Assembly: GCA_017853575.1 (NCBI GenBank) | Contig: JAFMJI010000001.1 | Coordinates: 62,001-126,000, forward strand | Reading direction: 5' to 3' | Length of the DNA: 64,000 nucleotides | DNA from: Chitinophagaceae bacterium | GTDB lineage: Bacteria; Bacteroidota; Bacteroidia; Chitinophagales; Chitinophagaceae | Part shown: positions 29,050 to 30,372 of the stretch, piece by piece | Position numbering within the stretch: the stretch's first letter is position 1 | Layout: each line of letters starts with the position of its first letter | Position numbers and translations under genes: made by a program | Notes under the pieces: generated by a model | Told to the model about the DNA's origin: nothing | The model's input: the letters and a program-made list of their open reading frames with translations, nothing else | Databases searched by the model: none

Positions 29050-29667
29050 TTATTTCTGAATATATACGATCGAACCGTTGTGTCCTGGTACAGATCCGCT
29101 TACAAGAATGAAATTTTTCTCAGGGAAAATTTTCACCACTTTGAGTCCCTTTAATTTAACACGGTCATTGCCCATGCGACCCGCCATGCGCATTCCTTTG
29201 AATACCCTTGACGCATCAGATGAGTTACCGATAGAACCGGGAGCACGCTGACGATCGTGTTGTCCGTGTGATTGCTCACCAACACCACTAAAACCATGGC
29301 GCTTTACAACACCCTGAAAACCTTTACCCTTGGTGGTTCCAACTACATCAACTTTCTCGCCTTCAGCGAAAATGTCGCATGTGATTGCTTCACCAAGATT
29401 TTTTTCAAGACTAAAATCTCTGAATTCTTTTACAAAACTTTTTGGAGTAGTTGAGGACTTAGCAAAATGTCCTTTTTCTGATGCGTTGGCTCTCTTTTCA
29501 ACTTTTTCACCAAACGCCAATTGAAGGGCTGTGTAACCATCGCTGTCCTTTGTTTTCACTTGCGTTACAACACATGGACCTGCTTCGATGACGGTGCATG
29601 GAGTCTGCTTTCCGTCGGGACCGAAGATACTGGTCATCCCAATTTTCTTACCGATAATTCCTTTCAT
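29050..29667 (-). CDS. rplC: 50S ribosomal protein L3
   Basis: 205 aa; [10 protein letters not shown]...[34 protein letters not shown]. Confidence 0.96.
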
Positions 29668-29699
29668 TGTTTTTAATTTTTGCCCCTTTTCGGTTAAAT

Positions 29700-29925
29700 G
29701 GACAGTGAGGTATGACCTCGCTTCAATCCCAGTTTGCTATCGACCTTTTCCCGCTTACCTTCTACTGGTGGGAAGTACCGACAGTAAACAAACCTCGAAG
29801 GGCTTGTTTATATTTCAACTCTCTTTAGAGAGATAAAATTTTTTCAGCGCTCCTTTTTCTCATGCCAACGGCAATTAATTGGGAGATGAATGTAAAGAAC
29901 TATGTTCCGAACGAATCCGGAACCG
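29700..29925 (-). ncRNA. Candidate structured cis-regulatory RNA between rpsJ and rplC
   Basis: Minus-strand stems: GUUCCG/CGGAAC (29904-29923), CUCUC/GAGAG (29819-29832), UAAACAAGCC-CUUCGA-GGUUUGUUUA (29785-29810), CUGUCGGU/GUCGAUAG + UUCCC/GGGAA (29737-29784), GAGGU/ACCUC (29707-29719). Confidence 0.5.
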
Positions 29926-29932
29926 ACCCTCA

Positions 29933-30238
29933 TCAGGCCTTGATTTCAACATCGACACCACTTGGAAGATCCAACTTGCTCAGTGCATCAACTGTACGTG
30001 ATGAAGAAGTATAAATATCAAGCAAACGCTTGTGCGTACTCAATTGGAACTGCTCACGCGCTTTCTTGTTCACATGCGGAGACTTCAACACAGTGAAGAT
30101 TCTCTTTTGCGTAGGCAAAGGAATTGGACCAGTAATAACGGCACCCGTGCTGCGCACAGTTTTAACAATCTTCTCCGCCGATTTGTCAACCAAATTATGG
30201 TCGTATGACTGCAATTTTATCCTTATACGCTGTGACAT
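29933..30238 (-). CDS. rpsJ: 30S ribosomal protein S10
   Basis: 101 aa; [40 protein letters not shown]. Confidence 0.97.
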
Positions 30239-30268: not shown

Positions 30269-30300
30269 CAAAGGTAAGAATTCAAACCATTCCACACAAA
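30269..30300 (-). promoter_or_regulatory. Putative promoter of rpsJ (S10 operon)
   Basis: Minus strand TTTG (30297-30300) - 20 nt - TACCTTTG (30269-30276), Bacteroidota -33/-7 grammar. Confidence 0.7.
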
Positions 30301-30343: not shown

Positions 30344-30372
30344 AAAAAAAGTCCCGGTGGTTACCGGGACTT
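30344..30372 (-). terminator. Intrinsic terminator after fusA
   Basis: 10-bp stem AAGTCCCGGT-aacc-ACCGGGACTT then TTTTT on the minus strand. Confidence 0.9.

Follow-up and report, generated by a model that had tools for sequence, protein, structure and literature searches.

A covarying RNA between rpsJ and rplC of Chitinophagaceae, a probable cis-acting leader of the rplC operon

In Escherichia coli, the S10 operon is regulated by ribosomal protein L4 through a leader situated upstream of rpsJ, with a NusA-dependent intrinsic terminator. boxA sites, in turn, are recognized by the complex of NusB and S10, the latter being also NusE. Control of mRNAs by boxA has been reported as well, putative sites have been described ahead of rpsJ in three genera, and an autoregulation of NusE was proposed by Baniulyte et al. 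2017 (PMC5725501). Within the Bacteroidota, Eckert and Weinberg 2020 described leaders for the ribosomal proteins L13, S4, S15 and S16; the main table of that report holds no Bacteroidota leader for rplC or the S10 operon, and its only rplC-linked motif occurs in Archaeoglobi (PMC7247131). In this work, we analyzed the gap between rpsJ and rplC in a 64,000-nucleotide stretch of DNA from a bacterium of the family Chitinophagaceae (the window), together with the corresponding loci of its relatives.

Like the L4-dependent leader of E. coli, the element that we describe is structured mRNA and would act on the S10 operon, but it is located between rpsJ and rplC, lacks a terminator and matches no Rfam family. 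As in the NusB-S10 regulation of rrn operons and suhB, it contains a boxA-like site, close to the rrn boxA of the family; whereas in the published cases boxA precedes rpsJ or suhB (PMC5725501), here it follows rpsJ and precedes rplC, accompanied by a conserved hairpin and a second domain. It also resembles the leaders of Eckert and Weinberg (PMC7247131), being a lineage-specific RNA, presumably cis-acting, before a ribosomal protein gene of the same phylum. Finally, the succession of boxA and a conserved hairpin on the nascent RNA recalls the lambda nut sites and the EAR and put antitermination RNAs, although no phage N-like protein is involved, the hairpin occurs also beside the rplC start without boxA, and antitermination is in this case hypothetical.

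On the minus strand of the window, the genes run in the order rpsL, rpsG, fusA, rpsJ and then rplC onward, with rplD as the second gene past the gap, followed by rplW, rplB and others. The features framing the gap are as follows.

30349-30372, minus strand: intrinsic terminator after fusA, closing the upstream unit
30269-30300, minus strand: Bacteroidota-type promoter TTTG-N20-TACCTTTG, read directly from the sequence
29933-30238, minus strand: rpsJ, encoding ribosomal protein S10 (NusE), located by tblastn against relatives
29050-29667, minus strand: rplC, encoding ribosomal protein L3, first gene 3' of the gap

These coordinates bear out the gap of exactly 265 non-coding nucleotides (29668-29932) given in the preliminary description. 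A protein encoded in the gap was considered and rejected, since the indels do not come in multiples of three and no conserved reading frame could be discerned. Of 76 Chitinophagales loci, 72 show this promoter pattern some 60 nt before rpsJ, so that rpsJ is probably the first gene of the transcript, behind a leader of about 25 nt. Two consequences follow: boxA comes directly after the gene of NusE (S10), and a leader of the E. coli type could not fit before rpsJ. The preliminary description had rightly pointed out that an element before rplC instead of rpsJ would be a different placement, and the transcript start just before rpsJ provides the reason for it. Apart from one match at chance level, no promoter-like sequence was found in the gaps.

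In most Chitinophagaceae the gap measures about 200-500 nt and contains strongly conserved blocks in a constant order, with frequent indels that are mostly restricted to hairpin tips and spacers. Genomes with the element have it at a single locus, in every case checked the rpsJ-rplC interval, and no second copy was found elsewhere. None of the 4227 Rfam families reached its gathering score in the window (best permissive match, E = 9.6) or in the rpsJ-rplC gaps of ten related loci; the single Rfam match in these loci, DUF805b in L037, is about 650 nt upstream of rpsJ and thus outside the gap. Given this absence of known leader families and the conserved, covarying structure that the relatives' gaps contain, the idea of a new structured RNA, with which this analysis started, gains clear support. 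The gap almost certainly holds a functional RNA under selection, and we consider it very likely that this RNA acts in cis as the leader of the rplC operon. Its 5' part comprises the following elements, among which boxA (29891-29901) and the most widely conserved hairpin (29843-29890) had not been listed previously.

29904-29923, minus strand: hairpin GUUCCG/CGGAAC just 5' of boxA, variable in sequence
29891-29901, minus strand: boxA-like site AGUUCUUUACA, candidate NusB-S10 site, resembling the family's rrn boxA
29843-29890, minus strand: core hairpin with an asymmetric loop, U29886 opposite C29849-G29848-C29847 (covariance model, 51.9 bits, E 6e-8)
29819-29832, minus strand: variable spacer hairpin CUCUC/GAGAG

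Dinucleotide shuffles would lead one to expect the core hairpin motif in 7.65 of the 135 Chitinophagales gaps, and it was detected in 122; the covariance model of the hairpin returned the rpsJ-rplC locus as the only confident match in the window's genome and its relatives. Nine of its 13 pairs covary, and 88.9% of the cells are paired (72.0% after shuffling). When compared with a tree-aware null, in which substitutions were re-placed at random along a FastTree phylogeny, six column pairs of this hairpin were significant. The conserved loop of the relatives places a single U (or A) across from CGC or CUC, and the hairpin is preceded by a conserved AGUUCUUAUAAA-like block. The spacer hairpin CUCUC/GAGAG, in turn, was correctly recognized in the preliminary description as present in the window, but its sequence is not conserved in relatives.

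The position of the core hairpin relative to rplC varies between lineages. In Chitinophagales with a short gap, a 3' module described below is missing and the core hairpin is kept, ending mostly 12-17 nt before the rplC ATG; this near-constant spacing is the one that a translational operator would have. In the lineage of the window, the core hairpin stands about 180 nt from the start codon and the 3' module is the one that reaches the ATG, so direct occlusion of the start cannot explain everything there. As the hairpin is maintained without the 3' module, and sometimes without boxA, it can be regarded as the core of the element, boxA and the 3' module being additions.

Regarding boxA, the sequence AGTTCTT is present in 99 of 135 Chitinophagales gaps (3.75 expected), and a slightly looser pattern follows the rpsJ stop codon at a median distance of 35 nt. 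Within the 64-kb window, the motif is intergenic at one place only, the rpsJ-rplC gap. It agrees with the consensus of the rrn boxA of three members of the family, which upstream of their 23S genes reads AAGTTCTTTGACATATTGG or a close variant (that of the window genome was not recovered). boxA is absent, with the core hairpin kept, from L021, L031 and the Chitinophaga-type gaps L035, L037, L040 and L048, which indicates that it is dispensable for the role of the hairpin. In 73 of 92 gaps, the stretch preceding boxA folds as well as the best 10% of its shuffles, and in seven gaps (L088, L097, L104, L111, L128, L136 and L167) it is replaced by an intrinsic terminator after the rpsJ stop codon and ahead of boxA, where a share of the rpsJ transcripts may end before the operon continues. 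No hairpin followed by a U run was found downstream of boxA in the leader, which points to translational or Rho-linked control and not to intrinsic attenuation.

These observations bear on whether the whole element could be a nut-like device for processive antitermination, in which the 3' module and the hairpins on either side of boxA would load Nus factors onto the polymerase, S10/NusE would be the sensor and no ribosomal protein of the operon would act as repressor. The location of boxA right after the nusE gene in most Chitinophagales gaps, the hairpin preceding it in most of them, as in rrn leaders, the conserved hairpin also following it and the transcript start at rpsJ would all be expected from such a device. 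We nevertheless judge it unlikely, as the hairpin outlives the loss of boxA and then keeps a fixed distance to the rplC start, which translational control accounts for better, and as no terminator to be overcome was found past boxA.

The second conserved domain, or 3' module (29668-29814), adjoins rplC and is built of three conserved helices, P1 to P3, and a terminal segment.

29786-29809, minus strand: P1, AAACAAGCC-NUUCNN-GGUUUGUUU, with 99.8% of cells paired, an invariant G-U and an A-U to U-A change
29737-29784, minus strand: P2, whose internal loop (GUAC / AAAAGGU) is invariant and whose apical insert varies
29699-29731, minus strand: P3, GGAUUGAA / UGUCC with a covarying inner helix
29668-29695, minus strand: conserved AACC..GGGGCA..AAA segment up to the rplC start codon, from the alignment of the 3' module

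A covariance model of the module matched one locus per genome in 61 of the 299 genomes of the order that were searched, with E values down to 1e-39, and all matches were confined to the window's GTDB family. In an alignment of 52 sequences, 16 of 30 pairs show changes on both sides, and 96.2% of cells pair, compared with 87.0% when partners were shuffled and at most 55% when the partner was slid. P2 consists of CUGCCG/CGGYGG, the invariant GUAC/AAAAGGU loop and then UUCC/GGAA; six of the seven pairs of its lower helix have changed on both sides, and P2 holds a pair that is significant in the tree-aware test. For the module as a whole, this test gave three significant column pairs, all within the proposed helices; of those obtained with a second segment alignment (94 sequences), two belong to the helices and the third lies within the P1 loop. 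Both modules therefore covary, and the tree-aware tests pick almost only helix pairs. As for the P1 loop itself (NUUCNN, 29795-29800 in the window), its two ends change together across genomes and form no standard pairs, which may reflect an unusual fold of the loop or contact with a protein. The terminal segment carries an extra GCGG/CCGC hairpin in many relatives that is absent from the window.

All the helices originally proposed are present: GUUCCG/CGGAAC, CUCUC/GAGAG, the 10-bp helix (P1), the two-tier helix (P2) and GAGGU/ACCUC, which is the inner helix of P3. The 17 nt taken for an unpaired loop, on the contrary, are an insert that varies and, in many relatives, folds into a hairpin. 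The strand was established from the alignment. The minus-strand RNA of the gap folds better than its shuffles (z -2.48; three of 200 shuffles as good), and the plus strand is nearly equal (z -2.23), so that folding energy alone does not give the strand. In P1, however, one pair is G-U in all 52 sequences and another is either A-U or G-U, and such pairs would be C-A or A-C mismatches on the opposite strand. They support the earlier argument that the G-U asymmetry is a sign of selection on the transcribed strand.

The invariant internal-loop nucleotides of P2 (GUAC/AAAAGGU) and P3 (GGAUUGAA/UGU) resemble those of an aptamer, and a riboswitch sensing a metabolite or ion on behalf of the ribosomal protein genes could be envisaged. 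This appears very improbable for an element tied solely to rplC at one locus per genome, when ligand classes usually control several unrelated genes, and one having neither a terminator nor a clear expression platform. Even harder to sustain is a stand-alone small RNA, or a processed 3'UTR RNA, acting in trans: it could draw on the long conserved structure and on the intrinsic terminator 5' of boxA in seven genomes, but the 3' module extends to the rplC start codon, the gaps are devoid of promoter-like sequence save the one chance-level match, and no terminator lies past the element.

Other arrangements were observed outside the main pattern. Chitinophaga and relatives (L035, L037, L040, L048) have neither boxA nor 3' module, and their core hairpin is preceded by a second conserved one, GGUCGCGCCUUCUGGGCGGCC. 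In Sphingobacteriaceae, rpsJ is not beside rplC, and rplC (L051-L054, L057, L061, L066, L068, L071, L073, L074, L077, L078, L080) has its own Bacteroidota-type promoter and a different leader hairpin, UUGAACGAAGC..GCUUCGAUGG, with a covarying outer helix, probably representing another class of rplC leader. In Flavobacteriaceae and relatives (L056, L067, L072, L075, L079), the gap contains a conserved AUGUCC..GGAAAAACGG and then an intrinsic terminator with a U run, an arrangement reminiscent of an attenuator between the two genes. An apparent occurrence of the element in another family of a distant class (L218, G633:C164) was discarded, since it is a 642-bp contig with a Chitinophagaceae-like rpsJ and probably an assembly contamination.

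With respect to the protein that might bind the leader, L3 contacts domain VI of the 23S rRNA, including the H96 region. Read in permuted order, the loop of the core hairpin (CUA-U-C / G-CGC-UGG) is similar to the 3x1 internal loop of H96 (C-CGC-UGG / CUA-U-G), with the flanking pair usually flipped. In short-gap loci such as L018, the leader form CUA-A-GU / AC-CGC-UGG coincides over 14 nt with the 23S form found in G122, another genome of the family. We estimate roughly at 1% the chance of a comparable match somewhere in the 23S rRNA, for a likeness that was noticed after the fact; as a comparison of sequences, it is suggestive only. Across genomes, the letters of the leader loop showed no clear tracking of the rRNA letters. 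For the 3' module, mimicry of rRNA was discarded: a covariance search against 23S loci gave a best E of 1.1 and local alignment against shuffles gave nothing. Likewise, the candidate 23S helix 'GUCCGG-U-CCUUAGG...CUAAGG-CGC-UCGGGU' was attributed to chance, base pairing being its sole support; we know of no 23S helix that corresponds to it. Separately, the 23S rRNA of the window genome (G000:C31, L176) was matched by the Rfam model only as several fragments on a single small contig, possibly because of assembly problems or insertions.

The literature on H96 is mixed: bL19 and uL14 have been located at it (PMC11354259), yeast L3 has been called the major binder of domain VI (PMC4671574), and the density of domain VI was found to be uL3-dependent 'except H96' (PMC9687910). 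In view of this and of the lack of letter tracking, our preference for L3 over L4 is a slight one, and L3 is a plausible but tentative candidate for the ligand of the leader. The alternative that L4 binds it as in E. coli, the leader having been relocated from before rpsJ to before rplC, seems to us rather improbable. L4 does regulate the E. coli S10 operon and rplD is here the second gene downstream, but the intrinsic terminator, a hallmark of the E. coli leader, is absent and the 3' module has no demonstrable similarity to rRNA.

Taken together, the features that the element has in common with autogenous ribosomal protein leaders, namely a conserved, covarying structure upstream of a ribosomal protein gene and a spacing that would permit an effect on it (12-17 nt from hairpin to ATG, or a 3' module reaching the ATG), together with the enriched boxA and the promoter before rpsJ, lead us to favor autogenous control of the rplC operon by a ribosomal protein, combined with a working boxA, to which we assign a probability of roughly 55%. 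According to this model, transcription would start just before rpsJ and S10 (NusE) would be made first. boxA would be transcribed next and could be loaded with the NusB-S10 complex, which would keep the polymerase processive or modulate Rho-dependent termination along this long operon. The likely site for a ribosomal protein encoded in the operon, with L3 slightly ahead of L4, would be the conserved hairpin that follows boxA, and surplus protein bound there would repress the initiation of rplC translation; in the lineage of the window, the second conserved domain, between hairpin and start codon, may relay the bound state to the initiation region. A more specific version, in which S10 with NusB at boxA gates the entry of the polymerase into the S10-spc block and the hairpin with its permuted H96 loop lets L3, or a neighboring large-subunit protein, repress rplC, is doubtful at present; if true, a single leader would read the assembly state of both ribosomal subunits.

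The control of the S10 operon of E. coli is a textbook case, and the leader described here would constitute, if confirmed, a new RNA family. Its design is unusual, with boxA straight after the gene of one of its own binding factors, a covarying hairpin of the operator type and a second conserved domain, and it makes the autoregulation by S10/NusE and by L3 or L4 directly testable with simple reporters. In the Chitinophagaceae, a large family found in soil and water, the leader probably adjusts the output of a large block of ribosomal proteins.
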